Shown here: positions 7,004 through 46,383 of the stretch, piece by piece | How the letters are laid out: each line of letters opens with the position of its first letter | Position numbering within the stretch: the stretch's first letter is position 1 | Assembly: GCF_011302915.1 (NCBI RefSeq) | Contig: NZ_CP049872.1 | Span: 1,116,001 to 1,180,000 of the forward strand | Reading direction: 5' to 3' | DNA length: 64,000 bases | Source of the DNA: Thermomonas sp. HDW16 | Lineage (GTDB): Bacteria; Pseudomonadota; Gammaproteobacteria; Xanthomonadales; Xanthomonadaceae | Notes under the pieces: generated by a model | Databases searched by the model: none | What the model was told of the DNA's origin: nothing | What the model saw: only the letters and a program-made list of their open reading frames with translations | Position numbers and translations under genes: made by a program

Positions 7004-7018
7004 TGGCGCCCGAAGTTG
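7004..7018 (+). repeat. attL-like copy of the tRNA-Asn 3' end
   Basis: TGGCGCCCGAAGTTG matches 46307-46321 exactly, that is, the CCA end, discriminator, acceptor strand and first T-arm bases of tRNA-Asn. Identity stops on both sides. It lies 8 bp after the pilE terminator hairpin, as expected for the leftover tRNA end on the distal side of an integrated element. Confidence 0.72.
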
Positions 7019-7080
7019 ACCTCGGAAGAATCGCCTAACCCTTGGATGTATCGAGAAATTCCGCCGTTGGAAAATTTTCC

Positions 7081-9598: not shown

Positions 9599-9901
9599 GG
9601 AAGCTCCGCGTCAGTGAATGAGCCTCCATCACACACGGGGATTTCAAAAACCTAAGGCAACGGGAAAACGGTCTTTTCGAGCCGTCCGCACATCACGGCT
9701 CCGGCGCCGAGTGCCGAGCCCGGGATGCCTTGGCCGATCGAGGTGTGTCTTCAAGGACCTGGTCCATGCTGGACGGACGAAGTCACTGCGTGACGTCGGG
9801 GACGGTGGTACCTGTGCCAAATCCCTCGGCGATTCGGCAGATGCGTTCAATCGGCAGTTTGGGAGCGCCGGACATTCCCGGTGCTTTCAAGGAACCATGC
9901 C
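9599..9901. other. Intergenic stretch, about 300 bp
   Basis: Gap between a minus-strand membrane protein and a plus-strand recombinase. Only short overlapping frames without ribosome sites are present. It probably holds the two promoters and possibly the attachment site of the recombinase; I see no clear repeat here. Confidence 0.4.
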
Positions 9902-11320
9902 ATGAACCCCTTCACCACGAATGCCGCTTTGCAGGTCATGGGCCTGCCGCGGTTGTGCGTCGCGCAATACACCGCACTGGCCGAGCGGCCCGGCGAGCAG
10001 GCGTTCCTCGCCGCACTGCTTGACCTGGCCTTTCAAGGGCGCGTCCGCGAGGCGCAACACAGCCAGGCCATGCAGGCAGCCCATGAGTGTGGGCACGACT
10101 GGACCGGCGAGGACGAGGCGCATTGGCGTCAGCCGCTGCCGGCCGTGACGCTTCCTGAGCCTGACCTGTTGCGGGAGGCGGCGATCGAAGAAATCCGCCA
10201 TGCCCGTAGTCCGGTGACGGCCCATCGCTGGCTCGCTGCGACCCTGGATGGGATCGCGCTTCGCACGCCGTGCACCGATCCGGTGATCGAGCGCGAGCAG
10301 CAGGGCGGCGCCCGCTGCTTCACCCTGCGGGTCGCGCAGCCCCAAGCGCGCATGAACGCGGTCATCGCTTTCCCGCCCCGGTCGGACAGCCTCGCGCTGT
10401 CCGACTTTGCCTGGGAGTGGTTCGAGGCGATGGCCGTTGCCTGGCGCCCCACCACCCGGGAAGCCGTGCAGGTCATCCTTCGGGCCCACCTGCTGCCTGT
10501 TTTCGCCGGCCGGCCCGTCGAGGCGTTCGGCCGCGTCGATGTCCTGAAGCTGCGTAAGGAGTTGGCGACGCAGCCGGGCCCGGCTGGCAAGGTGCGTGGG
10601 CCGCGGCGCATCAATCGGATTCTCGATGTGCTGGGGCAACTGCTGGACGAACGGGAACGGCAGTTGGGTACCGCCAATCCCTGTCGCGGCTTACGTCGCC
10701 TGCCGCAGCGTCGCACCACGATCCACCCGTTCGCCCTTCCGGAATTGTTGCGGCTGGCGAGTGCCGCGCCGGATCACTTGGGTGACTACGTCCTCGTTCG
10801 AGGCCTGACCGGGTTGCGCAGCGGCGAGGCGAACGGACTGCTGTGGGATCAGGTCGACTGGGAGGCCGGCACAATCACTATCTCGGCGGCGCGGGTGCGC
10901 GGGCAGCAGGTGCTGCCCAAGAACGAGTACTCCGAGCGGACGATTGCAATGCTGCCGTCGGTCGAGGCGGGGATGCGTCGGCAATCGGAGCGGACGGGCA
11001 GCGGCGGTGGGTTCGTGTTTCAGACCCGGCGCGGGTGCCCGATCGATACGTGCAATTTCGCGCAGCGCGATTGGCCCCGACTTCTGGAGGCGACCGGATT
11101 GGCGAGCCGTGCCCCCGAACACCTGCGCCACACGGCGGCTTCACTGATGCTGGCCGCGGGCGAAGCGCCAATGTTCGTGGCGGCGACGCTCGGCCATAGC
11201 GACTCCCGCATGCTCATGAGTACCTACGCGCGGTTCGTTCCCAATGCACTCGGCCAGAGAGATGGTACGGCGCTTGAGAAGATAGTTGCTTCGTCGCAAG
11301 CAATGGCCATTGCGGAATAG
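9902..11320 (+). CDS. Tyrosine recombinase/phage-type integrase
   Basis: 472 residues from the ATG at 9902. The C-terminal catalytic domain has the full set of active residues: R306 in TGLRSGEANG, H407 and R409 in EHLRHTAAS, H432 in TLGHSDSRM and the nucleophile Y442 in MSTYARFV. The first 150 residues are unusual, without a standard arm-binding domain, followed by a SAM-like core-binding region (160-270). It is unrelated in detail to the P4-type integrase at the right island end, so the region probably took in at least two integrative elements. Its own attachment sites were not identified. Confidence 0.85.
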   Translation: MNPFTTNAALQVMGLPRLCVAQYTALAERPGEQAFLAALLDLAFQGRVREAQHSQAMQAAHECGHDWTGEDEAHWRQPLPAVTLPEPDLLREAAIEEIRHARSPVTAHRWLAATLDGIALRTPCTDPVIEREQQGGARCFTLRVAQPQARMNAVIAFPPRSDSLALSDFAWEWFEAMAVAWRPTTREAVQVILRAHLLPVFAGRPVEAFGRVDVLKLRKELATQPGPAGKVRGPRRINRILDVLGQLLDERERQLGTANPCRGLRRLPQRRTTIHPFALPELLRLASAAPDHLGDYVLVRGLTGLRSGEANGLLWDQVDWEAGTITISAARVRGQQVLPKNEYSERTIAMLPSVEAGMRRQSERTGSGGGFVFQTRRGCPIDTCNFAQRDWPRLLEATGLASRAPEHLRHTAASLMLAAGEAPMFVAATLGHSDSRMLMSTYARFVPNALGQRDGTALEKIVASSQAMAIAE

Positions 11321-18977: not shown

Positions 18978-19964
18978 CTACAGCGGTGCGCCTGCGCCTT
19001 CACCACCGAAACGCTGTTCCACGGCTTCGCGGAACTGGGCCTCCGACTGTGGCTTCACGAACAACGCCACCACGGTCGGGAACGTCGCGCGCACGTCATG
19101 TTCGATCCCGGCCACGCAGTCCTCGATCTCACCGGTACACAAGGTATCGTCGAACTCGATGCTCAACGCCACCAGCGACTGGTCTGGTGCCAGCTGCGCG
19201 GTCAACGCGCTGTTCACCGCGCGCACGCCGGCATGCGCGGCGGCGATCCCGTGGATCGACTGCACCAAGGCCGGCGGGGCGCGTTCGCCGATCAGCAAGC
19301 TCTTGCTCTCGATCGCCAGCAGCACCGCAGTGGTGGCCAGCACCAGGCCGATCAGGATCGAGGCGATGCCGTCGAACACCGGCATGCCGGTGAGCTGGGA
19401 GGCGAGGATGCCGCCAATGGCCAGGATGATGCCGATCAACGCCGCACTGTCCTCGAACAGCACCATGAAGGTGGGCGGATCCTTGCTCTGCCGGAACGCG
19501 ATCCAGAACGGGGTACTGCCGCGCGCCTCTGCGAAACTGCGCCAGGCCACCCGCCACGACACAGCCTCGAACAGGAATGACAGCCCCAACACGATGTAGC
19601 TAACGTAGGCGTGCTGAACCGGATGCGGATCCTGTACATGGCGCACGCCCTCGTACAGCGAGACGCCTGCGCCCAGACCGAATAACAGCAGGGCGACGAT
19701 GAAGCTCCAGAAATACAGCTCGCGCCCGTAGCCAAATGGATGCACTGCATTCGGCCGCTGCCGTGAACGCCGCATGCCGTACAGCAGCAGCACTTCGTTG
19801 CCGCTGTCCACCACCGAATGCACCGCCTCACTGAACATTGCAGAGCTGCCGGTCGCCACAGCGGCGACCAGCTTGGTCGTCGCCACTGCAAGGTTGCCGG
19901 CCAGCGCGGCATGCACCACATGCCCGGCCTTGCGCTCGCCCTTCGCCGTCGTCGTGCCGTCCAT
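18978..19964 (-). CDS. Cation diffusion facilitator family transporter
   Basis: 328 residues, six TM helices. The metal-site helices carry SEAVHSVVDSGNEVLLLYG (His/Asp pair) and VLFEDSAALIGIILAIGG. This E/D-S-A form belongs to the SLC30A9-like group rather than the ZitB/CzcD group, so the substrate may not be zinc. The cytoplasmic domain follows at about 215-328. The start at 19964 was chosen because the frame upstream loses membrane character. Divergent from the MscS operon. Confidence 0.85.
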   Translation of the reverse strand: MDGTTTAKGERKAGHVVHAALAGNLAVATTKLVAAVATGSSAMFSEAVHSVVDSGNEVLLLYGMRRSRQRPNAVHPFGYGRELYFWSFIVALLLFGLGAGVSLYEGVRHVQDPHPVQHAYVSYIVLGLSFLFEAVSWRVAWRSFAEARGSTPFWIAFRQSKDPPTFMVLFEDSAALIGIILAIGGILASQLTGMPVFDGIASILIGLVLATTAVLLAIESKSLLIGERAPPALVQSIHGIAAAHAGVRAVNSALTAQLAPDQSLVALSIEFDDTLCTGEIEDCVAGIEHDVRATFPTVVALFVKPQSEAQFREAVEQRFGGEGAGAPL

Positions 19965-20024
19965 TTGCGCCCCTCTGTGCCGGGTTGTCGCCATCATGCC
20001 GGTTTCCGTTAACCTTCCACGGAC

Positions 20025-20576
20025 ATGTTGCTCACCGCCATCATCCAGCACGACTTGTTCGATCCCGGCACGCCTGTCGGCGCGGCCTTCTACGCCGCGC
20101 TCGCCTTGGTCGTGGCCTCGATCGTCGCCGTGCTGATCCGTCGCTTCAGTCGCCGGTTGGAGAAGCGCCTGAGCGACGTCACTGTGTTGCGCTTCGTTAC
20201 ATTGTTCGCGCAGATGCTGGTTTACCTGGCCGCCCTTGTGCTGTATGCGCACCTTGTGCCGGCGCTGCGAACCGTCGGCACCGCCTTGCTAGCGGGCGCT
20301 GGCGTGCTTTCGGTAGTGGCGGGCTTGGCCGCGCAGGACACGCTGGGAAACCTGATCGCCGGTTTCTCGCTGGTGCTGTCCGGCACGATCCACGAAGGTG
20401 ACACCATCCGGCTGTACACCCCCGTCGGCCTTATCACCGCGCGCGTGCATGCCATTTCGCTGGGTTTCACCGTGCTCATGGACGACGACAACAACGAGGT
20501 CGTGGTGCCCAACAGCGTGATCATGACGAGCGCCATCCTGCGCGTGTCGCACCCTCCATCGCCCCCATCGCTATGA
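20025..20576 (+). CDS. Small MscS-family mechanosensitive channel-like protein
   Basis: 183 residues: TM segments at about 20-40, 60-80 and 88-110, then the MscS beta domain. The pore helix and its exit are recognisable in LLAGAGVLSVVAGLAAQDTL and GNLIAGFSLVLSGTIHEGD, and the beta domain ends in VVPNSVIMTS. It is shorter than MscS (286 residues) and lacks the C-terminal alpha/beta domain. First gene of a four-gene coupled operon; its stop overlaps the peroxidase start (ATGA). Confidence 0.85.
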   Translation: MLLTAIIQHDLFDPGTPVGAAFYAALALVVASIVAVLIRRFSRRLEKRLSDVTVLRFVTLFAQMLVYLAALVLYAHLVPALRTVGTALLAGAGVLSVVAGLAAQDTLGNLIAGFSLVLSGTIHEGDTIRLYTPVGLITARVHAISLGFTVLMDDDNNEVVVPNSVIMTSAILRVSHPPSPPSL

Positions 20577-27801: not shown

Positions 27802-29030
27802 GGCGGTTTCAACCGGTCAACGCAACAGCCTGTCGGTAACGCTCAATTGGCGTCTCAAAGTTCAGCGTCTTGCGTGGCCGTTCGTTCAAGCGCCTAGCCA
27901 CTTCATCGAGCTGGGTCTGGGTGAAGCCTGACACGTCGATTCCCTTCGGGAAGTACTGCCGCAGCAGGCCGTTGGTGTTCTCGTTCGACCCGCGCTGCCA
28001 AGGGCTCTGCGGATCGCAGAAGTAGACCTGGATGTCCGTGGCCAAGGTGAAGCGACGATGGTCGGCCAGCTCCTTGCCGCGATCCCACGTGAGCGACTGG
28101 TACAGCTGGTTCGGCAGCTGGCGCGCATGTTCGATCAGCGCGTCAACCACCGTCCTCGTGTCCTTACGATCGACCTTCACCAGCATCACGTAGCGCGTGC
28201 TGCGCTCAACCAGCGTGGCGATCTGGCTGTTGCCGCTGCCGAACAGCAAGTCGCCTTCCCAGTGCCCGGGAACGGCCCGATCCTCGACGTCGGCGGGCCG
28301 CTCGCGGATCGACACGGTGTCGCAGATTCGGCCGTGGTCTGCCGTCTTCTGGGTGTGGTGGCGGGAACGACGCATCGCCCGCGTCCGCCGCAGGTGCTCC
28401 AGGAGCTCTTTCTTCAGCGCGCCGCGCGACTGGATGAAGAGCGTGCGGTAGATCGTCTCGTGGGACACCTGGCAGGCCGCATCATTGGGGTAGGTGCGCA
28501 TCAGCCAACCGGCGATCTGCTGGGGTGACCACTGCTGTTGCAGCTTGTCAGCCACCCGTTTCGCCAGCGCAGGATGCAGCGCCAGCTTACAAGTCTTCGG
28601 ACGATGCGCCCGGTCCCACGCCGCCTGATCGGCGTGGCTGGCGCGGTACCGCTCGGCGCCGCCATTACGCAGGATCTCGCGGCTGATCGTCGACGGAGCC
28701 CGGCCAAGCGTCGTTGCAATCGAGCGGATCGAATGCCCAGCCACCAGCGCCCGCGACACATCTTCGCGCTCGGCTAGGGTTAAGGCGCGGACCGACCGGC
28801 AGCGAGCCGGCGGGCGGATACCACCAGTCGCAGCAAGAATCCCGCGCACCGACGTGTGGTGTCTGTCGAACAGCCTAGCGATCTGGTGGAGTGACTCGCC
28901 CTTCTGCCAGCGGTCCCACATCAGGCCCTTCTGGGTATCGGTGTATTGAATCCGGGTTCTTCGCTTCAACCGCAACACTCCCGCTGCCTGGGCAGCTAGC
29001 CATGTGTTGCATTGATCGTATGAAACCGCC
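27802..29030 (-). mobile_element. IS30-family insertion sequence, copy 1
   Basis: 1229 bp, bounded by GGCGGTTTCA-type inverted ends and flanked by the dinucleotide AC on each side (27800-27801 and 29031-29032), consistent with a 2-bp target duplication. It encodes one transposase on the minus strand. It is the inverted twin of 38820-40048, and the encoded proteins are identical. Insertion interrupted a palindromic intergenic motif. Confidence 0.88.
27809..28978 (-). CDS. IS30-family transposase, copy 1
   Basis: 389 residues counted from a GTG at 28978, which lies fully inside the element; the frame is open to the element end, so the exact start is uncertain. An N-terminal HTH_38-type region (SLHQIARLFDRHHTSV, and later HSIRSIATTLGRAPSTISREI) is followed by the DDE catalytic core: D in GHWEGDLLFGSGN, D in LTWDRGKELADH and E in RGSNENTNGLLRQYFPKG. 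The gene appears intact and may be active. Confidence 0.9.
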   Translation of the reverse strand: MLRLKRRTRIQYTDTQKGLMWDRWQKGESLHQIARLFDRHHTSVRGILAATGGIRPPARCRSVRALTLAEREDVSRALVAGHSIRSIATTLGRAPSTISREILRNGGAERYRASHADQAAWDRAHRPKTCKLALHPALAKRVADKLQQQWSPQQIAGWLMRTYPNDAACQVSHETIYRTLFIQSRGALKKELLEHLRRTRAMRRSRHHTQKTADHGRICDTVSIRERPADVEDRAVPGHWEGDLLFGSGNSQIATLVERSTRYVMLVKVDRKDTRTVVDALIEHARQLPNQLYQSLTWDRGKELADHRRFTLATDIQVYFCDPQSPWQRGSNENTNGLLRQYFPKGIDVSGFTQTQLDEVARRLNERPRKTLNFETPIERYRQAVALTG

Positions 29031-29041
29031 ACCCAAAGCGG

Positions 29042-34332: not shown

Positions 34333-37300
34333 ATGTTGAATCGCCTCGTTGAAGTCTCACTACGCTACAAGTTCCTTGTCCTGATCGTGTTTCTGGTCAT
34401 CGCGTTCCTCGGGATCAGCGCGGTTCGCTCGGTGCCCATCGACGCCTTTCCGGATGTCACGCCCGCCCAGGTCAACGTCTACACCGAATCCCCCGGTCTC
34501 GCGGCGGAGGACGTCGAGCAGTTGCTGACCACGCCGGTGGAGTCGGCGCTGGCCGGTTTGCCGAAGGTGCAGGAAATCCGTTCGGTCAGTCTGTTCGGCC
34601 TGTCCTACGTCTCGGTGTACTTCGAAGACGACATGGACATCTACTTCGCTCGACAACTCGTCAATGAACGCCTGCAGGAAATCGGCGATCGCCTGCCAGA
34701 GGGCTACGGCACCCCGAGCATGGGGCCCAATGCCTCGGGTCTCGGGCAGGTCTATTGGTACACCGTCGAACGCGCACCAGGCGTCAGCAAGGAGCAGGTT
34801 AGCGACATGGACCTGCGGACATGGCAGGAGTGGACTGTCCGGCTGATCCTGCGCACGGGCCAGGGCGTCGACGACGTCACATCCTGGGGTGGTGGCGAGC
34901 GCCAGTACCAAGTGCAGATCGATCCGCAGAAGCTCTACGCGCGCGGCCTCGGGTTCAAGGACGTCATCGAGGCATTGCCCGCGAACAACGGCCAGGTCGG
35001 TGGCAACACCATGGACGTGGGACGCGAGCAGTTCCTTGTCCGTGGTCTTGGATTGCTGAAGTCGACTGATGACATCGGTGAGATCGTGCTTAAGGCCGAG
35101 GATGGGGTGCCGGTCTACCTACGCGACGTCGCGACGGTGACAGAGGCCGCCGCGCCGCGTTTCGGAGCAGTGACGCATGATGGCGAGGAGGTCGTTCTCG
35201 GCATGGCACTCGCGCGCATCGGCGAGAACGCCAAGAACGTGGTTGAGGCGGTCAAGGCCAAGGTCGACACAGCGCGCGCGGCCTTGCCGGAGGGCATGGT
35301 GCTGAAGCCGGTCTACGAGCGCACCGACCTGGTCAATAAGGCGGTCGGCACCGCGACCCGCGCGCTGGTCGAGGGTTCAATCCTCGTGGCCATCGTCCTG
35401 TTCCTGTTCCTCGGCGAACTGCGCTCGGCGATCGTCGTGATCGTCACCTTGCCACTGGCGATGCTCATCGCGTTCATCGGCATGGGCCAGGCGGGGCTGT
35501 CAGCCAACCTCATGTCACTCGCGGGGCTGGCGATCGGTATCGGGATGATGGTGGACGGCGCGGTGGTGATGGTCGAGAACGCGTTCCGGATCATGGCCGA
35601 GCGCCTGGAGCATGGCGAGAAAGTCGACCGCACCAGCGCGGTGCTGGCCGCGGCCAAGGAAGTCGCGAACCCGATTGCCTTCGCGATCATCATCATCATC
35701 GTGGTGTTCCTGCCGCTGTTCTCGTTGGAAGGGCTCGAAGGCAAGATGTTCAAGCCGATGGCCTTCAACATCGCCTTCGCGATGGCGGGCTCGCTGATCC
35801 TGAGCTTGACGCTAATCCCGGTGCTCGCTTCGCTGATCCTGAAGCCGAAGCCGGAACGAGACACATGGCTCGTGGCGCGGGTGAAGCGCGTCTATCAGTC
35901 GTTGCTGCAAAAGGCCTTGGCGAGGAAGAAGGTCGTGGTGGTCACCGCCGTGACCGCGCTGGTGGCTGGCCTCGCCATCTTTCCATTCCTGGGCAAGGAG
36001 TTCATGCCGCAGTTGCAGGAAGGGTCGATTATGTGGCGCGTCACCGGGATTCCCTCTACTTCGCTCGACGAATCCATTCGCACCAGCAAGATCATCGCCG
36101 ATGCCTTCAAGAAGTTCCCGGAGGTGGACAGCACGCTCGCGATGATCGGTCGCGCGGAGAAGGGCGAGACTGCTGACGTCAACTACATGGAGATTTATAC
36201 CGCGCTCAAGCCGCAGGACGAGTGGTCGGGCGACCGCGACATCAAGCAGCTCGAGGAAGCCATGCAGGAGACGCTCGAAAAAGTCGTTCCGAACGTGGTC
36301 CCAGCCTACACCCAGCCGATCCAGATGCGGGTGGAGGAGCTGATCTCCGGTGTGCGGGCCACCCTGGCGCTCAAGTTGTATGGCACCGATCTTGGAGAAC
36401 TGGATCGCCTCAGCACGGCATTGAAGGACGTACTCGGAAGCGTGCAGGGCGTGGCAGACCTGTCGCTGGAAGCCAACATCGGCAAGCCGCAGATCCGCAT
36501 CTCGGTCAATCGCGACGAGATGGCCCGGCATGGGATGAATGCCGAGGACGTGCTGACCATCGTGCGCAACGGATTGGGCGGAGAGCCCGTGAGCGTCCTA
36601 CTCGATGGCGTGCGGCGCTTCGACATCGCGGTGCGGCTGGATGACCAGGTGCGCACCAATGTCGAATCGCTGCGACGCATCCCGCTCAGGACCGCGACCG
36701 GTGCGATCGTGCCCTTGTCGGAGGTCGCCACCATCGAAGTGGGCGAAGGCTATTCATTCGTCCGACGCGAACAGTTGCAGCGCTATGCAGTGATCCAGAT
36801 GGACGTTCGCGGACGCGACATCGACGGCTTCGTCCGCGATGCCAACGCTGCGATCGCCCAGAAGGTGAAGCTTCCGGCCGGCTACTGGATCGAATGGGGT
36901 GGCGCGTTCGAGAACCAGCAGCGCGCTCTCGCCAAGCTCGCGGTAATCGTCCCCATCACGATCTTCTTCATCTTCGTGCTGCTCTACACCGCCTTCAACT
37001 CGATCAAGTACGCGGCGCTGATCCTCGCCAATGTGCCCTTCGCCACGATTGGGGGCCTTGTCGCACTTGCCCTCACCGGGCAATACCTGTCGGTGCCGTC
37101 CGCCATCGGGTTCATCGCGGTGTTCGGTGTAGCGATGCTCAACGGCATCGTGCTGGTCAGCGTCCTCAACGAGCTGCGGGACAAGGGGCTGTCGGTGCGA
37201 GACGCCGTGGTGCAGGGGACGGCGCTGCGATTACGCCCGGTACTGATGACCGCGAGCGTAGCGATCCTGGGCCTGGTGCCGATGCTGCTGTCGAGCGGCG

Positions 37301-37446
37301 TGGGTGCTGAGACTCAGCGACCGCTTGCCACCGTCGTGGTGGGTGGCCTGATCAGCTCCACGCTGTTGACGCTGATCCTGCTGCCTGTTCTGTATGAGTG
37401 GCTCGAACTGCGGGCCGAACGCCAATCCAAGGAGTCGACACCATGA
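34333..37446 (+). CDS. czcA: Heavy-metal RND efflux pump, CzcA/CusA family
   Basis: 1037 residues, 12 TM helices, starting MLNRLVEVSLRYKFLV. The proton-relay helix 4 reads GIGMMVDGAVVMVEN, with D408 and E415 conserved at the CzcA positions, but residue 402, aspartate in classical CzcA, is glycine. This pattern is closer to other heavy-metal RND subgroups, so substrate (zinc/cobalt/cadmium, nickel or copper/silver) is not settled. It exports metal to the outside with CzcB and CzcC. It overlaps the PII-like gene by 4 bp. Confidence 0.9.
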   Translation: MLNRLVEVSLRYKFLVLIVFLVIAFLGISAVRSVPIDAFPDVTPAQVNVYTESPGLAAEDVEQLLTTPVESALAGLPKVQEIRSVSLFGLSYVSVYFEDDMDIYFARQLVNERLQEIGDRLPEGYGTPSMGPNASGLGQVYWYTVERAPGVSKEQVSDMDLRTWQEWTVRLILRTGQGVDDVTSWGGGERQYQVQIDPQKLYARGLGFKDVIEALPANNGQVGGNTMDVGREQFLVRGLGLLKSTDDIGEIVLKAEDGVPVYLRDVATVTEAAAPRFGAVTHDGEEVVLGMALARIGENAKNVVEAVKAKVDTARAALPEGMVLKPVYERTDLVNKAVGTATRALVEGSILVAIVLFLFLGELRSAIVVIVTLPLAMLIAFIGMGQAGLSANLMSLAGLAIGIGMMVDGAVVMVENAFRIMAERLEHGEKVDRTSAVLAAAKEVANPIAFAIIIIIVVFLPLFSLEGLEGKMFKPMAFNIAFAMAGSLILSLTLIPVLASLILKPKPERDTWLVARVKRVYQSLLQKALARKKVVVVTAVTALVAGLAIFPFLGKEFMPQLQEGSIMWRVTGIPSTSLDESIRTSKIIADAFKKFPEVDSTLAMIGRAEKGETADVNYMEIYTALKPQDEWSGDRDIKQLEEAMQETLEKVVPNVVPAYTQPIQMRVEELISGVRATLALKLYGTDLGELDRLSTALKDVLGSVQGVADLSLEANIGKPQIRISVNRDEMARHGMNAEDVLTIVRNGLGGEPVSVLLDGVRRFDIAVRLDDQVRTNVESLRRIPLRTATGAIVPLSEVATIEVGEGYSFVRREQLQRYAVIQMDVRGRDIDGFVRDANAAIAQKVKLPAGYWIEWGGAFENQQRALAKLAVIVPITIFFIFVLLYTAFNSIKYAALILANVPFATIGGLVALALTGQYLSVPSAIGFIAVFGVAMLNGIVLVSVLNELRDKGLSVRDAVVQGTALRLRPVLMTASVAILGLVPMLLSSGVGAETQRPLATVVVGGLISSTLLTLILLPVLYEWLELRAERQSKESTP

Positions 37447-37853: not shown

Positions 37854-38750
37854 ATGGGTGCGGGACACGATCACGGCACGAGCGAAATCCAGCACGAACG
37901 CCCGCTCTGGTGGGCACTCGGGCTGACGGCCACCTTCCTGGTCGCCGAAGTCATCGGCGGGTTGGTCACCAACAGCCTGGCATTGCTGTCCGATGCCGCA
38001 CATATGATGACGGACGTCATCGCGCTCGGGGTTTCGCTGTTCGCCGTGAGGCTCAGCCGCCGGCCTGCCGATGCACGGCGGACCTACGGGTACGCACGAA
38101 TGGAGGCCATTGGCGCGATCATAAACGGCGGCCTGCTGTTCCTGGTCGCCGGCTACATCCTCTGGGAGGCAGTCGGCCGGTTCCGCGAACCGCCGGAGGT
38201 CGCGTCGACCGGCATGTTGGTTGTAGCGGTCATCGGTCTGGTGGTGAACCTGATCTCCATGAAGCTGCTGAAGGCGGGAAGCGGAACGAGCCTCAACGTC
38301 AAGGGCGCATACCTCGAAGTGTGGGCCGATATGCTCGGGTCCATCGGCGTCATCGTCGGCGCGCTTGTGATCGGTTTCACCGGCTGGACCATCGCCGACC
38401 CGATCATTGCCGTGTTGATCGGGCTTTGGGTGCTGCCCCGCACGTGGACACTACTCCGGCAAGCGGGACACGTCCTGATGCAGGGTGTGCCGGATGGAAT
38501 CGATCTCGATGAGATACGCAGCGCATTCCTGGGCCACGAGGGAGTGAAGGACGTGCATCACCTCCACGTCTGGGCACTTGCATCCAAGGAGGCGGTGCTC
38601 ACAACCCATGTCGTGACCGGCGACGGCACGGCCGCGAATGGCGACTCGCTGCGCGCTGGGCTCGTTGCGATGCTGGACGAGCGCTTCGGGATCGAGCACT
38701 CAACGATCCAGGTGGAAGCTGAAGCGTGTCACGACCGTGAGCATAGGTAG
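37854..38750 (+). CDS. czcD: Cation diffusion facilitator, ZitB/CzcD-like
   Basis: 298 residues, six TM helices. Metal site residues are visible in SDAAHMMTDVIALG (HxxxD, helix 2) and LEVWADMLGSIGVIVGA (helix 5). The cytoplasmic domain (about 205-290) has VHHLHVWALASKEAVLTTH. N-terminal histidines (GHDHGTSE) add a probable metal-binding tail. It exports zinc or related divalent cations to the periplasm, where the CzcCBA pump could act. Last gene of the cassette, 69 bp before IS30 copy 2. Confidence 0.88.
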   Translation: MGAGHDHGTSEIQHERPLWWALGLTATFLVAEVIGGLVTNSLALLSDAAHMMTDVIALGVSLFAVRLSRRPADARRTYGYARMEAIGAIINGGLLFLVAGYILWEAVGRFREPPEVASTGMLVVAVIGLVVNLISMKLLKAGSGTSLNVKGAYLEVWADMLGSIGVIVGALVIGFTGWTIADPIIAVLIGLWVLPRTWTLLRQAGHVLMQGVPDGIDLDEIRSAFLGHEGVKDVHHLHVWALASKEAVLTTHVVTGDGTAANGDSLRAGLVAMLDERFGIEHSTIQVEAEACHDREHR

Positions 38751-38819
38751 CACCTATCTAGAGGCCGTAACCCGCTGGGTGGGCACGACGCTTCAGATAC
38801 TCGAACGACCGCTTCTGGC

Positions 38820-40048
38820 GGCGGTTTCATACGATCAATGCAACACATGGCTAGCTGCCCAGGCAGCGGGAGTGTTGCGGTTGAAGCGAAGAACCCGGAT
38901 TCAATACACCGATACCCAGAAGGGCCTGATGTGGGACCGCTGGCAGAAGGGCGAGTCACTCCACCAGATCGCTAGGCTGTTCGACAGACACCACACGTCG
39001 GTGCGCGGGATTCTTGCTGCGACTGGTGGTATCCGCCCGCCGGCTCGCTGCCGGTCGGTCCGCGCCTTAACCCTAGCCGAGCGCGAAGATGTGTCGCGGG
39101 CGCTGGTGGCTGGGCATTCGATCCGCTCGATTGCAACGACGCTTGGCCGGGCTCCGTCGACGATCAGCCGCGAGATCCTGCGTAATGGCGGCGCCGAGCG
39201 GTACCGCGCCAGCCACGCCGATCAGGCGGCGTGGGACCGGGCGCATCGTCCGAAGACTTGTAAGCTGGCGCTGCATCCTGCGCTGGCGAAACGGGTGGCT
39301 GACAAGCTGCAACAGCAGTGGTCACCCCAGCAGATCGCCGGTTGGCTGATGCGCACCTACCCCAATGATGCGGCCTGCCAGGTGTCCCACGAGACGATCT
39401 ACCGCACGCTCTTCATCCAGTCGCGCGGCGCGCTGAAGAAAGAGCTCCTGGAGCACCTGCGGCGGACGCGGGCGATGCGTCGTTCCCGCCACCACACCCA
39501 GAAGACGGCAGACCACGGCCGAATCTGCGACACCGTGTCGATCCGCGAGCGGCCCGCCGACGTCGAGGATCGGGCCGTTCCCGGGCACTGGGAAGGCGAC
39601 TTGCTGTTCGGCAGCGGCAACAGCCAGATCGCCACGCTGGTTGAGCGCAGCACGCGCTACGTGATGCTGGTGAAGGTCGATCGTAAGGACACGAGGACGG
39701 TGGTTGACGCGCTGATCGAACATGCGCGCCAGCTGCCGAACCAGCTGTACCAGTCGCTCACGTGGGATCGCGGCAAGGAGCTGGCCGACCATCGTCGCTT
39801 CACCTTGGCCACGGACATCCAGGTCTACTTCTGCGATCCGCAGAGCCCTTGGCAGCGCGGGTCGAACGAGAACACCAACGGCCTGCTGCGGCAGTACTTC
39901 CCGAAGGGAATCGACGTGTCAGGCTTCACCCAGACCCAGCTCGATGAAGTGGCTAGGCGCTTGAACGAACGGCCACGCAAGACGCTGAACTTTGAGACGC
40001 CAATTGAGCGTTACCGACAGGCTGTTGCGTTGACCGGTTGAAACCGCC
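38820..40048 (+). mobile_element. IS30-family insertion sequence, copy 2
   Basis: 1229 bp, same length and encoded protein as copy 1, opposite orientation. It begins GGCGGTTTCATACG and ends GGTTGAAACCGCC, flanked by the dinucleotide GC at 38818-38819 and 40049-40050. The different flanks of copies 1 and 2 argue for independent insertions. The target is again the palindromic CCGCTTCTGGCC motif. Confidence 0.88.
38872..40041 (+). CDS. IS30-family transposase, copy 2
   Basis: 389 residues counted from the GTG at 38872, identical to copy 1. The frame is open further upstream into flanking DNA, so the true start must lie within the element. HTH and DDE residues are intact as in copy 1. Two intact identical copies suggest recent activity. 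Confidence 0.9.
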   Translation: MLRLKRRTRIQYTDTQKGLMWDRWQKGESLHQIARLFDRHHTSVRGILAATGGIRPPARCRSVRALTLAEREDVSRALVAGHSIRSIATTLGRAPSTISREILRNGGAERYRASHADQAAWDRAHRPKTCKLALHPALAKRVADKLQQQWSPQQIAGWLMRTYPNDAACQVSHETIYRTLFIQSRGALKKELLEHLRRTRAMRRSRHHTQKTADHGRICDTVSIRERPADVEDRAVPGHWEGDLLFGSGNSQIATLVERSTRYVMLVKVDRKDTRTVVDALIEHARQLPNQLYQSLTWDRGKELADHRRFTLATDIQVYFCDPQSPWQRGSNENTNGLLRQYFPKGIDVSGFTQTQLDEVARRLNERPRKTLNFETPIERYRQAVALTG

Positions 40049-40542: not shown

Positions 40543-41190
40543 TCAATTCCTTGTGGGCGCACATGATTTTCCAATTCGAGAAATCAACTCCGCATTCTGA
40601 GTCTCGAGTGTCTCCCGTCTCGCTATTAGATCCGCGACTTTTTCCATGGCCTGCTGCGTCGTTGTTCTGAGGGCATGCACCTCGTCCTTCAGTGCCATCA
40701 TCCGCTGCTCGTTCTCAGCGCGTAGCGCCGTCTCGACCGCCAACTGTTTCTCAAGCTCGCCAGCCATCGATTGCCAACGCTGTTCATTCATCTTTAAGGT
40801 CGAGATCTCGCCGATGGAGCGCGCCAATTCTTGGTCCAGCCGGTCTGCCAGCGCCATGGCCTCAGCGACATCCGTCTCCAGATCGCGGCGAGCTTCAGCC
40901 AGTGCTTCGCGTTCCACAGCAATGCGTGCTTCCGCAGCGGACGACGCCGACGCCCATACTTCATTTCCGATTCGCGTAAGCGCCTGCACGACGACATCTG
41001 GCACCGGAGTCTTTGAACTAGTCGCGCTAACCGCTTTGTGATCCCGCCACTCCACAAGCCACTTCTGAATGGTGGAAAAGGATCCTTGGCCGATCTCACT
41101 TCGGATCGCTTCGTGTGTTGGCTTTCTGTCCTCCGCAACAAGCGAGTCAGCAGCCTGCCAAACCTGCTCTTTGGAAATGGCCACAGTCAA
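40543..41190 (-). CDS. KfrA-type DNA-binding coiled-coil protein
   Basis: 215 residues: N-terminal KfrA_N-like domain (AADSLVAEDRKPTHEAIRSE, then IGQGSFSTIQKWLVEW) and a long alanine/glutamate-rich coiled coil from about residue 85 to 205. KfrA of plasmids binds its own promoter and helps partition. A perfect palindrome lies 8 bp upstream of the start (41198-41211), a plausible autoregulation site. Presence in an integrated element points to plasmid-derived parts. Confidence 0.8.
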   Translation of the reverse strand: MTVAISKEQVWQAADSLVAEDRKPTHEAIRSEIGQGSFSTIQKWLVEWRDHKAVSATSSKTPVPDVVVQALTRIGNEVWASASSAAEARIAVEREALAEARRDLETDVAEAMALADRLDQELARSIGEISTLKMNEQRWQSMAGELEKQLAVETALRAENEQRMMALKDEVHALRTTTQQAMEKVADLIARRETLETQNAELISRIGKSCAPTRN

Positions 41191-41548: not shown

Positions 41549-41778
41549 TGCGCGCATGCATCGGTGTTGAGGTAGAGCTATTTTTCCAGCTTGCAACCGA
41601 AGCAACACACCCGAACCCTCGCTAAAATCGCTACCGATAGGGGGTAAAGCAGGGACTTCAAGCGGTGCGGCTCGAAATTAAAAGACAGGGCCGATTTGCA
41701 AGTGGACATCTTGGTCTGATTCTCCGCACTATTGGACGCAAGGGGCATCCCTAGACGCATTTGGCGATTGGCGAATCG

Positions 41779-42843
41779 ATGGGAAACGGCGAAGCGATCA
41801 ATTCGGTACAGCACTTCGACTCAATCGAAGACGTTTTGGTCGTACTTCAACGGGAAGTCGTTGCGGATGAGATGCGCAACCTCTTTAGGCTGGATGGTAT
41901 TGAATATCTCTGGACATCGGACGGAACCATGATTCCGTCGATCACGTCTGATTTTGTCTCCCCTTATCTGTATCGAGGGCAGACGGCGCGCCATCGCCCG
42001 TGTCTGCCAAGCGTCTTTCGTGGCCTAAGCGCGGTTGACCATCCCCAAAAGCTGACGCCCGCGGAACGAGCCCGCTGCTTCGTGGATCGCGTCAAACTGG
42101 AGGAGTTCACGCTAGCGCTGGAAATGCATCCGGCCAGTCGCTATGCGCGTGAAATCGGCCTGCGGGTGCATCCGTATGCCTTGGCACAGCACTATGAGTT
42201 GCCGACGGACAGAATTGATCTCACGCAGGATCATGCCGTGGCCGCGTTTTTCGCCACGAACTCATGCAAGAACGGTGTCTGGCTCCCGGAGCGCGACGGC
42301 ATAGGGATCGTGTATCGGCTCCATAGGAATTCATTCTCCGAACACTACCCGGACAATCTGGTGTGCATTGGAAAGCAGGCGCTGCCTAGGCCAGGCGAGC
42401 AGAAGGCATACGCCTTCACGTTGCCACTAGGCTTCGATTTCGAACGCTTTCCTATGGATATCTATACGTTCCAGCAGGTCGAATCCTGCGGACAACGCCT
42501 GAACGACCATTTCAAGGGCGGCGACTCATTGTTCCCTCCAGACGTAATGGCGGAGGTAGCAAATACGATTAAAGCGGCGACCACGCTTTCACGCCAGGTC
42601 GTAACTCGCATCCTAGGGCTCGATAAATCGCCACCCCTGCCTGCGACTAAGGCCCTTGAAATGAACGAGACATTCCTGAGGATGCATTCGTCCGTGCATG
42701 TGTCGGACAGAGAGCCCATTGCGATGAATTCCTCGCAGCGGAAGCGAGCGCAGGCCTCGGTCAAAAGGATGCGCAGAACCTTCCTGAAAGGTGTCGGGGC
42801 TCTCGCCGTGCGGAAGGTTAAGCCCGGCGAATTCGCCAGATAG
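41779..42843 (+). CDS. FRG-domain protein
   Basis: 354 residues from the ATG at 41779; a TTG at 41761 is possible. The FRG core is clear: SPYLYRGQTARHRPCLPSVFR, then LAQHYELPTDRIDLTQDHAVA AFFA-like sequence around residues 140-165. The function of FRG domains is unknown; they recur in phage-defence and mobile regions. The C-terminal tail is strongly basic (RKRAQASVKRMRRTFLKG). It lies 210 bp upstream of the retron-type reverse transcriptase and could be part of the same system. Confidence 0.75.
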   Translation: MGNGEAINSVQHFDSIEDVLVVLQREVVADEMRNLFRLDGIEYLWTSDGTMIPSITSDFVSPYLYRGQTARHRPCLPSVFRGLSAVDHPQKLTPAERARCFVDRVKLEEFTLALEMHPASRYAREIGLRVHPYALAQHYELPTDRIDLTQDHAVAAFFATNSCKNGVWLPERDGIGIVYRLHRNSFSEHYPDNLVCIGKQALPRPGEQKAYAFTLPLGFDFERFPMDIYTFQQVESCGQRLNDHFKGGDSLFPPDVMAEVANTIKAATTLSRQVVTRILGLDKSPPLPATKALEMNETFLRMHSSVHVSDREPIAMNSSQRKRAQASVKRMRRTFLKGVGALAVRKVKPGEFAR

Positions 42844-43053
42844 CGAGCGGGCTAGCGATCCAGAGCGGACGCCTCCAAAGTGGGCGCCTAGGGTTGCTAT
42901 TCCGTGTCAGTTTTCTTCAATTCCTTTTGCGGTCAGGTCTGATCTAGTATTGGGGTTGGGAGGGCGGCATCCGTTCATGGTGTTGGGGCGTGATTTCGCG
43001 TCCGCTGTAAAGTGACCACTCGCTTTCTGGACTGGGCTGCCCTCCCGCTTTCT
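42844..43053 (+). ncRNA. Candidate retron msr-msd region (unproven)
   Basis: 210-bp gap directly before the reverse transcriptase, the usual place for the retron non-coding RNA. GGGAGGGCGGC at 42958-42968 can pair imperfectly with GCTGCCCTCCC at 43037-43047, and TCAG/CTGA and CGCC/GGCG pairs lie upstream. I could not define the branching G or the a1/a2 ends with confidence, so limits are those of the gap. Confidence 0.35.
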
Positions 43054-44778
43054 ATGACTACTGTGTCCATGCAGCCTTGCGCGCATTTTCGTCTTGCTGA
43101 CGTCAGGACAGTTGACCAACTTGCACGTGCACTGGGCGTGCCCTTGCAGGTGTTTCACGAGGTCATTGCGTGCCAAGATCCGGGCTTGATCTATGCCATG
43201 CATAGCATCCCAAAGCGAAGTCAGAGAAACCCGGATGGCTTCCGCGTCGTGTGGGAAAGTCGCACCGAAGCTGTAGCAAGGTCTCATAAGGCAGCCGCTA
43301 GACGGCTCGACGATTTTGCAAGGCGCCAAGAAATTGGGTACCCCAATCCTGCTGTTCATGGCTATGTGCGCGGGGGATCCACGAGAAGCAATGCCTTACC
43401 GCACTGCGGTGCCCGTGTCGTGGTGCGGGCAGACATCGAGGACTTCTTTCAAACCATTACGTTGGAAAGGGTGGAGAGCGCGTTTCGCGCAATCGGAATT
43501 GCGCCAGAAACTGCGCACTCGCTGGCACTGTTCTCAACCATTAACGGGAAGTTGCCACTTGGTCTGCCGGAAAGCCCCGTTGTATCCAATCTTGTCTGCC
43601 TAGATCTCGATAGAGACCTGAAGGCACTAGCTGATCGGCACGGCGTCAAATACACGCGATACGCCGATGACATGACCTTTTCCGGCAATGAGAATCTGCC
43701 AAGTAGAGAGGAAATTCGCACTGTCCTGCTTCGACATGGATTCCGGTTGTCAGATCGAAAATTCAAGAAGTCAAAGCGCGGCCAAGCCCATTTCGTAACC
43801 GGACTCAGTGTGTCCGAGCGCGACTACCCTCATGTTCCAAGGAAGTTGAAGCGCATGCTTCGTTTGGAGCTTCATTTTTGCGAGAAGTATGGCCTAGCGA
43901 CTCATGCGGAAAATAGGCGGGAAAGCGAGAGGAAGACATACCTGCGAATTGATGGGATGGTCAACTACGTATCCTTCATTGAACGTAGAAAATCAGCGGC
44001 CATAAAGGGACAATGGGATCGCATACGAAAAAAGCACCTCGGGTCGACTTTGTACGCCAGACTTGCCGGGAAGGAGATTGGTGATCGTTTTGTAGTAGCA
44101 GATGAAACAGAATTCGAAGTGGATGGCATTGGCTATCTTGCGATTTGTTTTGTTCGGCTCTCAAATCTTGAGGATGTTGAGAAGTCGCTCGATCTATTGT
44201 TGGGGGACTACCTCACCAAGCCAGGGGCAAAAGGCAATCTCGATGTGCTGAAAAAGGTCGGGATCCACTATGCCGATGCGCATTTTGATTTGCGAACGAT
44301 GACTCTAGACCTGATGACGGAGTACCTGCAGTGGAGTGCATCGATCTGCTTTTCGCGGTTGCGGACATCTGACGACTACAAGGAAGCCTATCTCAGGATG
44401 TTTGCAGAGCTGGTCAAGCAGGAGTTCGTAACTTCAGATGGACTTCGTGTGGAGATGCTTGTCGAGAACAACGACAAGATCAAGCTTCCGGCATTGACGC
44501 AAGTTTGCGAGGCCGAGTATCGACGGTCTGAATCCGAAGATGGCCGCAGACCGATATCACTTCCTAGCATCCGGAGCGTGAAGAAGTCTGAGATTAGGTC
44601 GCTTACGCTTGCCGATTTCGTATTAGCCGCGTTTCGCGCATACGTTCTGCGTGCGCATGATGATCGAGTGTTGGACTTTGAGCGAATTCGCGACCGAGTT
44701 AGGTACGTGAGAGATTCGGATAGCGACAACTTCTACACCCGCAAGAAGCCCTTCCTTGGCATCGGCGACGTGACTTGA
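43054..44778 (+). CDS. Retron-type reverse transcriptase with C-terminal DUF3800-like extension
   Basis: 574 residues from the ATG at 43054 (a GTG at 43012 is in frame). RT domain about 50-320: retron marker NALPH (113-117), catalytic D in RADIEDFF (127-132 region), YADD at 203-206 and the retron marker VTG at 248-250. From about residue 345 a separate domain begins with VVADETEFEVDGIGYLAICF and later KVGIHYADAHFDLRT; the early DE pair and later histidine helix recall DUF3800 (RNase H-like) proteins. Retrons with a fused DUF3800 domain have been classed (type VII, as I recall). It would make msDNA from an adjacent RNA for antiphage defence. Low GC marks recent transfer. Confidence 0.8.
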   Translation: MTTVSMQPCAHFRLADVRTVDQLARALGVPLQVFHEVIACQDPGLIYAMHSIPKRSQRNPDGFRVVWESRTEAVARSHKAAARRLDDFARRQEIGYPNPAVHGYVRGGSTRSNALPHCGARVVVRADIEDFFQTITLERVESAFRAIGIAPETAHSLALFSTINGKLPLGLPESPVVSNLVCLDLDRDLKALADRHGVKYTRYADDMTFSGNENLPSREEIRTVLLRHGFRLSDRKFKKSKRGQAHFVTGLSVSERDYPHVPRKLKRMLRLELHFCEKYGLATHAENRRESERKTYLRIDGMVNYVSFIERRKSAAIKGQWDRIRKKHLGSTLYARLAGKEIGDRFVVADETEFEVDGIGYLAICFVRLSNLEDVEKSLDLLLGDYLTKPGAKGNLDVLKKVGIHYADAHFDLRTMTLDLMTEYLQWSASICFSRLRTSDDYKEAYLRMFAELVKQEFVTSDGLRVEMLVENNDKIKLPALTQVCEAEYRRSESEDGRRPISLPSIRSVKKSEIRSLTLADFVLAAFRAYVLRAHDDRVLDFERIRDRVRYVRDSDSDNFYTRKKPFLGIGDVT

Positions 44779-44828
44779 AGTGAAATCATTCCAAGCCTAA
44801 GTGTCTCCAGTCAGGAAGCAGCCTGCTA

Positions 44829-46043
44829 CTAACAGTCTGACCGATCTTTACTCTGTGCGCCGACAAGTGCGTCAAGGTAGTCCGCCCACCTCTGCATGAT
44901 TTCAATTCGCTTTCTCAGTTGCTTTGCTCGGTTATATGCCTTTTGCGTAGCGTCTCCCACGCTGTGTGCCAGCTGAGCTTCGAGCGCGTCAATGTCCACA
45001 TCGAACTCCTCCCGCGCCCTGGTCCGAAAGCTCGCCCGAAACCCATGCGGGACGTGTATCCCGCGCAGACCGCTGTCACGCAACGCCTTGCTCAGCGTGT
45101 CCCGACTCATGTGAGGCGTGCCCCGTTCCGCGATTGCGGGGAACACCCAGTCCTTCTTGCTGCCGCCCCTACGCCAGCCCAACGCTTCTCGCAGGAGTTC
45201 GAGTGCCTGCTTGGGCAAGGGAACGTCGTGATCGACCTTGGTCTTCATTTCTGCGCCCGGAATCTTCCAGATTGCGCGCTCCAGATCGATTGCCGACCAG
45301 CGCGCCGAAACGACATTTATCGGTCGCAGCGCTGTATATGCGGCCAGCCGCAATGCCGCCCCGATCATCCGCTCGGGATACTTGGATACGACCCCCATCA
45401 CTCGCTTGAGGGCTTCCTCTTCCACCGCGGCCGGCACGCTCTTGGCTTTCGGCAGCCGGACGGTTCCCTTCAACGTGAGCTTGCGCCCGTCCTCCCGGTG
45501 GCCCTTCCTGATCGCGAAATCGATGATTTGGTTGAGGTAGCTCTTGGCCTTCTGGGCCGTGTGCGGTGTGCGGGCGGCGATCTTCTCGATGGCAGCCGCA
45601 GCCTCCGGCGTTCCTAGCGTGCGGATATCTACCTTTCCGAGGGACGGGATCAGGTCCCCGTCCAGAATTGCTGTGATCTTGTCGACTGTCTTCTGGGCGA
45701 GCCCTTCCTGCTTCTCGATCCGCCACGCGCTAGCGACCGCCTCGAACAGGGCGGCATCGGCTGTCGCTTGGGCCTCCCTGGCGCTCCGACGGCTCGACCG
45801 GGGATCCGTGCCGGTCGACACCTTCCCACGGGCTTCCTGGGCCTTTTGGCGCGCCTCGGCGAGTCCGATGGCCGGATAGGGGCCCAAGGACATCATGGTG
45901 GCCTTTCCGGCCCACCTGAAGCGGTAGCGCCAGAGCTTTGACCCCGCCGGGGAGACCTCCAGGGCCAAGCCATCCCGATCGGCAACCCGATAGAGCTTGT
46001 CCTTGGGCTTGAAGGCCCGAATGCGGGTATCAGAGAGGGACAT
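44829..46043 (-). CDS. P4-type tyrosine integrase
   Basis: 404 residues: N-terminal DUF4102/arm-binding domain (VADRDGLALEVSPAGSKLWR, then SLGPYPAIGLAEAR), SAM-like core-binding domain (95-185) and catalytic domain with R240 in YTALRPINV, H333 and R336 in PHGFRASF, H360 in AQLAHSVG and Y370 in QKAYNR. It is read away from the tRNA-Asn that begins 264 bp upstream, the usual geometry for integrases inserting in tRNA 3' ends. It is the best candidate for mobilising the whole island. Confidence 0.92.
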   Translation of the reverse strand: MSLSDTRIRAFKPKDKLYRVADRDGLALEVSPAGSKLWRYRFRWAGKATMMSLGPYPAIGLAEARQKAQEARGKVSTGTDPRSSRRSAREAQATADAALFEAVASAWRIEKQEGLAQKTVDKITAILDGDLIPSLGKVDIRTLGTPEAAAAIEKIAARTPHTAQKAKSYLNQIIDFAIRKGHREDGRKLTLKGTVRLPKAKSVPAAVEEEALKRVMGVVSKYPERMIGAALRLAAYTALRPINVVSARWSAIDLERAIWKIPGAEMKTKVDHDVPLPKQALELLREALGWRRGGSKKDWVFPAIAERGTPHMSRDTLSKALRDSGLRGIHVPHGFRASFRTRAREEFDVDIDALEAQLAHSVGDATQKAYNRAKQLRKRIEIMQRWADYLDALVGAQSKDRSDC

Positions 46044-46306: not shown

Positions 46307-46383
46307 TGGCGCCCGAAGTTGGACTCGAACCAACGACCCCCTGATTAACAGTCAAGTGCTCTAACCGGCTGAGCTATTCGGGC
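46307..46383 (-). tRNA. tRNA-Asn (GTT)
   Basis: 77 bases, complete cloverleaf: acceptor GCCCGAA pairs with TTCGGGC, anticodon loop CTGTTAA gives GTT, T-arm GGTTCGAGTCC, encoded CCA. The last 15 bases (46307-46321) are repeated at 7004-7018, marking it as the island insertion site; the gene was rebuilt intact. Confidence 0.95.

Follow-up and report, generated by a model that had tools for sequence, protein, structure and literature searches.

The window analysed in this work, a 64,000-nucleotide stretch of Thermomonas sp. HDW16 (contig NZ_CP049872.1, positions 1,116,001 to 1,180,000), harboured a retron-like locus composed of a conserved non-coding RNA (ncRNA) of 89 nt (42958..43046, + strand) and a gene encoding a retron-type reverse transcriptase (RT) fused to a DUF3800-like domain (43054..44778, +). 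ATG 43054 was the likely start, giving a protein of 574 aa, with the ORF running to 44778 and a gap of 210 bp (42844-43053) to the upstream open reading frame (ORF), which ends at 42843. An alternative GTG start at 43012 (588-aa form) was rejected: it sits inside the ncRNA, and the frame is closed in the relative L021, where it is open only from 5986, i.e. 21 nt 5' of the ATG of that locus (6007). The gap and its paired arms had been described in an earlier note on this DNA, and both were found: GGGAGGGC (42958-42965) pairs with GCCCTCCC (43039-43046), and the arms lengthen to 11 pairs.

Retron RTs are marked by the motifs NAxxH (region X), YADD and VTG (region Y). In the RT domain (residues 8-330; 43075..44043, +) these were located at 113-117 (NALPH), 203-206 and 248-250, and N113, A114, H117, Y203, D205, D206 and V248-G250 were invariant in the 15 proteins of the alignment (A4, which omits L018, L019, L022 and L035); in some relatives the YADD motif read YVDD or YSDD. 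Retron RTs ranked first by PADLOC, NCBIfam, PDB sequences and predicted fold, in agreement with the assignment of the earlier note. The PADLOC model RT-DUF3800_VII-A1 scored 494 bits (covering residues 28-581 of the 588-aa form) and RT_VII-A2 scored 202 bits, while the NCBIfam ranking was headed by retron St85 (145 bits vs. 27 for Drt2 and 22 for group II, none at its own cut-off). The predicted RT fold was closest to that of Eco2, likewise an RT-effector fusion.

The C-terminal extension (residues 338-574; 44065..44775, +) contained the early DE pair and the histidine previously pointed out: D350, E351, E471, D521 and H405 were invariant in all 15 aligned proteins. Its predicted fold matched solved RNase H-like structures, RNase H2 being the nearest in the list, and the model placed D350 and E351 within the first strand, E471 at the end of a strand and D521 in a late helix. 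According to two reports, DUF3800 is an RNase H fold adjoining defence genes (PMC10910872, PMC12669027), so that the predicted fold is the one reported for this family. The stand-alone PADLOC model DUF3800_VII matched the tail at 6e-6. The Pfam profile DUF3800 (PF12686) did not match the window protein at E ≤ 1 and matched 1 of the 15 family members (E 0.082), and a tail profile against PDB sequences gave weak matches only, to chains of importin and complex I (best E 0.51). The proposal that the extension is DUF3800-like is thus supported by the PADLOC models and the predicted RNase H fold, though not by Pfam.

The ncRNA was enclosed by a terminal helix, P1, formed by the arms a1 (42958..42968, +) and a2 (43036..43046, +), with 11 of 11 positions paired. 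Inside it, P2 (42973..42977 with 43028..43032, +) was paired in 73% of the alignment cells, with two-sided changes in 4 of 5 pairs; P3 (GGU, 42979..42981, with ACC, 43015..43017, +) was paired in 100%, with a two-sided change in 2 of 3 pairs, each change occurring in one sequence; hairpin H1 (42986..43003, +; 7 pairs, loop AUUU) was paired in 99%; and the short hairpin H2 (43004..43014, +) was paired in 71%, and appeared in a shifted register when the window and its two closest relatives were folded as single sequences. The stretch between H2 and a2 (43015..43035, +; 21 nt, or 32 nt with H2) was the candidate template, equivalent to an msd, that the RT may copy.

Conservation of this element was high. 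In three close loci 79-82 of 89 columns of the ncRNA were identical, vs. 603-701 of 900 for the gene's first 900 nt and 39-41 of 98-110 for the 90 nt upstream; by inspection, the element was also present in 15 further relatives' loci and in L035, a duplicate of L027 which was dropped, leaving 18 loci for the RNA comparison. The distance from the ncRNA to the start codon was 4-24 nt in the 17 loci with a placed start, window included (that of L028 was not placed). Folding of 42957-43049 gave a z-score of -4.3, and none of 200 shuffles was equally good.

The 11-nt ends paired at 10-11 positions in 18/18 loci, despite 17 different 5' ends, while arms swapped between loci paired at a mean of 6.1 (26 of 306 swaps reached 10). 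The longest helix had 10-18 pairs, vs. a mean of 8.2 and a maximum of 15 for shuffled flanks (336 of 900 reached 9); helix length alone was therefore weak evidence, and the comparison of own with swapped arms carried the argument. The inner structure (P2, P3, H1 and H2; 19 pairs) was paired in 86.5% of cells (87.0% without the window group), with two-sided changes in 11 pairs, vs. 26-53% for slid controls. The number of further pair types was no better than in shuffles (372 of 500 reached it). Helices P1-P3 were traced by eye across the 18 loci before their pairs were tallied; run on the untrimmed alignment, RNAalifold returned 10 pairs, corresponding to H1 and a conflicting inner helix, not to P1-P3.

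The covariance search of the gap suggested in the earlier note was successful with our own model, not with Rfam. A model built from 15 other loci (R3, without the window group sequences, its structure drawn with that group in view) recovered the window ncRNA at E 1e-9 in 83 kb, and in the 2.8-Mb genome it was the sole match at E ≤ 1 (3.5e-8; 150 of 748 candidates scored); one further listing of the window ncRNA was by construction. The window region and L032 had no Rfam match at E ≤ 5, and therefore matched none of Rfam's DUF3800 motifs at that threshold; L027 gave two weak matches to unrelated long non-coding RNAs. Searching 398 phylum genomes with model R1 under stricter filters gave matches in two at E ≤ 0.001, one of them the own genome; the other (27.9 bits) was read as chance, its 3,065-base locus having no RT relative. 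In a genome sample of the same size, the protein family was found at E ≤ 1e-60 in 1 of 398, again the own. A promoter before the ncRNA was not supported in the window (score 7, reached by 61.5% of its shuffles); over the 18 loci the mean score was 8.0 of 12, vs. 6.7 shuffled.

Described retrons have their template between the msr and a2. At this position, all 18 loci had room for 14-21 nt after H2 (25-32 nt with H2). The conserved unpaired stretch ACUUGCUU was exact in 9 of the 18 loci and read ACUCGCUU in the window; a CUU-N-CUU form was present in 11 of 18, the window not among them. The msd of Eco2 is described as 67 bases forming one long hairpin, with an msr of one stem-loop (PMC12405507), and the RT-DNA of Eco1 as about 85 bases (PMC8989520).

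The reading we favour, with moderate confidence, is a single-gene retron of PADLOC type VII-A1, with a short template and a gated DUF3800 nuclease; it would probably act against phages, as a system of a type already catalogued. What the computation shows is an RT of retron type carrying an RNase H fold in which the acidic residues are invariant, a covarying and conserved ncRNA where retrons have theirs, and little room for a template. We infer the steps beyond this (one transcript, priming, complementary DNA synthesis, gating, trigger and toxicity) as follows. The ncRNA and the gene, lying head to tail, would probably form one transcript; the RT would bind the ncRNA via H1 and the a1/a2 helix and copy a very short template adjoining a2 on its 5' side (about 20 nt, or about 30 with H2), the product being an RT-DNA much smaller than that of Eco1 or Eco2. 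The complex of RT, RNA and DNA would keep the fused nuclease inactive until phage damage to, or binding of, the RNA or DNA freed it to cut nucleic acid and stop growth. Such gating is favoured by analogy with Eco2, for which the proposal is that the msdDNA keeps a fused Toprim RNase effector occluded until this DNA is degraded by a factor of the phage (PMC12405507).

Two features weigh against this reading: a long msd hairpin of the Eco1/Eco2 type (about 67-85 nt) was absent in 18/18 loci, and 7 of the 18 had no G between the 11-nt a1 and P3, so that a priming G could not be placed (the guanosines of P3 were near-universal). The 'msr-msd' of the earlier note was therefore right in position and ends, its function being that of a candidate only. 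A long msd hairpin, usual in retrons, may not be a defining feature; topologies of msdDNA extend to kinked single-stranded DNA (PMC13405049). Since the msr of Eco2 has one stem-loop, H1 might serve as the hairpin of the msr and H2 as a tiny one of the msd.

The main rival concerns the role of the RNase H fold, which may not be (only) a toxin: it may be the retron's own RNase H, removing template RNA and setting the DNA end, a possibility of low probability in our judgement. It is the main rival because retron RTs typically lack an RNase H and rely on host RNase H1 (PMC8989520), while here such a domain is fused to the RT and has RNase H2 as its nearest structure in the list; if so, the retron would be independent of host RNase H1. 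PADLOC, however, also includes the stand-alone DUF3800_VII, in other one-gene retron models the RT is followed by a Toprim, TIR or protease domain, and a domain acting in maturation only would leave the retron without an effector. Both roles may be true. Carried further, the locus might be a self-contained minimal retron, a reading of similarly low probability, in which an RT with its own RNase H, resembling retroviral RTs in this respect, would make an oligonucleotide of ~20-30 nt from the 89-nt RNA, with no usual msd hairpin and perhaps no canonical priming. The ACUUGCUU stretch would then be the template core, and its CUU-N-CUU form would permit slippage to short tandem repeats.

Somewhat less likely still is that the ncRNA is not reverse transcribed but has a structural or regulatory role, holding the DUF3800 nuclease inactive or controlling translation, while the RT copies something else. 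The very small template room and the lack of a fixed priming G would fit such an RNA, as would its a2 arm, ending 7 nt 5' of the start codon, and the DUF3800 genes reported with associated putative ncRNAs in PMC10910872 (the Rfam motifs DUF3800-I and DUF3800-IX are named in PMC11701678). The RT catalytic residues were nevertheless invariant, the a1/a2 ends were those of retrons, as was the location ahead of the RT gene, and no Rfam family, DUF3800 motifs included, matched at the threshold used. A non-retron defence RT (DRT/Abi) or group II intron RT beside an incidental inverted repeat is very improbable: the window RT shares the RVT_1-type polymerase fold with these enzymes, but profile and fold rankings placed retron RTs far ahead, which disfavours the group II and abortive-infection RTs raised earlier, and the repeat covaried in 18/18 loci.

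The protein type itself is already catalogued: the window protein is like PADLOC type VII-A1 over nearly its whole length, in domain order and in motifs. The literature searched gave no characterised VII-A1 member and no description of its ncRNA or of a DUF3800 retron, and the PADLOC models used are protein only; the RNA may be in print in a retron classification paper outside that search, reportedly Mestre et al. 2020. Type VII-A2 is alike by its RT model and by the DUF3800_VII match to the tail, but has, by the model names, separate RT and DUF3800 genes, fused here. Retron-Eco2 (Ec67, RT-Toprim) differs in its effector, Toprim instead of an RNase H fold, and in the length of its msd (67 bases in a long hairpin; PMC12405507). 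The DUF3800 nucleases reported from certain CRISPR-Cas loci of type V/VI likewise have an RNase H fold and adjoin defence genes, but as described in PMC10910872 and PMC12669027 they are proteins apart from any RT. If the favoured reading is true, a catalogued retron type gains a defined ncRNA and a testable product, and the small RNA suggests how the retron's DNA might be made; an RNA and RT-DNA far smaller than those of Eco1/Eco2 would bear on the minimum retron template and on compact DNA-writing tools. With an RNase H fold of the RT's own, the alternative between host RNase H1 substitute and toxin becomes testable.

Sixteen loci were obtained by scanning species genomes: those of Dyella and Rhodanobacter had 66% identity and the rest 32-36%, including 12 of the 16 that we take, by name, to be alphaproteobacteria, one planctomycete and one Paceibacterota metagenome-assembled genome. 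The plasmid search (1e-10) gave 116 records with any match; of these, the Aminobacter record L018 alone reached ≥ 80% coverage, while a plasmid of Rhizobium (L019) had 77%. Nine of 98 relatives of the window genome matched, in the RT part only, and the 24 same-genus genomes gave no match, which fits acquisition with an island. The protein was found in 0 of 32 candidate stretches of viral contigs, nine phage records matched the RT part with none covering 80%, and the seven viral stretches with the ncRNA core pattern had no RT relative (tblastn, 1e-3). No RT_VII-A2 loci for comparison were obtained from 369 genomes at E 1e-60, a search in which the control genomes were silent too. In the Aminobacter plasmid (L018:1663-5575) a Drt8 RT (454 bits) and an ATPase resembling HerA (84 bits) preceded the RT-DUF3800 gene, which places two RTs of defence type next to each other.

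The low GC content and the position at an island end that had been noted previously were both confirmed. At 43001-45000 GC fell to 0.523, the minimum among the 63 rows (46 of them had 0.60 or above), and the retron gene adjoined an integrase (44829-46043, -) and a tRNA-Asn (46307-46383, -), the 3' end of which was directly repeated at 7004-7027 (vs. 46307-46330; 20 of 24 matches, the first 15 exact). The maximum over 20 shuffles was 17, and one other place, 22370, had 18. The retron gene thus likely lies at one end of a 39.3-kb integrated island.

A protein with an FRG domain (41761-42843, +; Pfam 7e-11, PADLOC PDC-S15 weak) lay directly 5' of the retron and was rejected as its partner, with no relative in 18 relatives' loci at E ≤ 0.01. 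Near the retron was also a plasmid-type gene for a coiled-coil protein with a KfrA_N domain (40543-41190, -; Pfam 1e-26). A second phage-type integrase ORF (9881-11320) and transposase-like ORFs with HTH_38 and rve domains (38638-40041, +, overlapping ORF 37854-38750; and 27809-29032, -) were present, together with proteins of the Cation_efflux and AcrB/AcrD/AcrF families (18978-20252, -, and 34333-37446, +), so that the island carries efflux genes besides the retron. A second one-gene retron-like RT was encoded in the same genome (L002:724-2409, -; G000:C1, about 231400), with RT-TIR_XII (429 bits) as its best PADLOC model, followed by RT-Toprim_I-C (322 bits).
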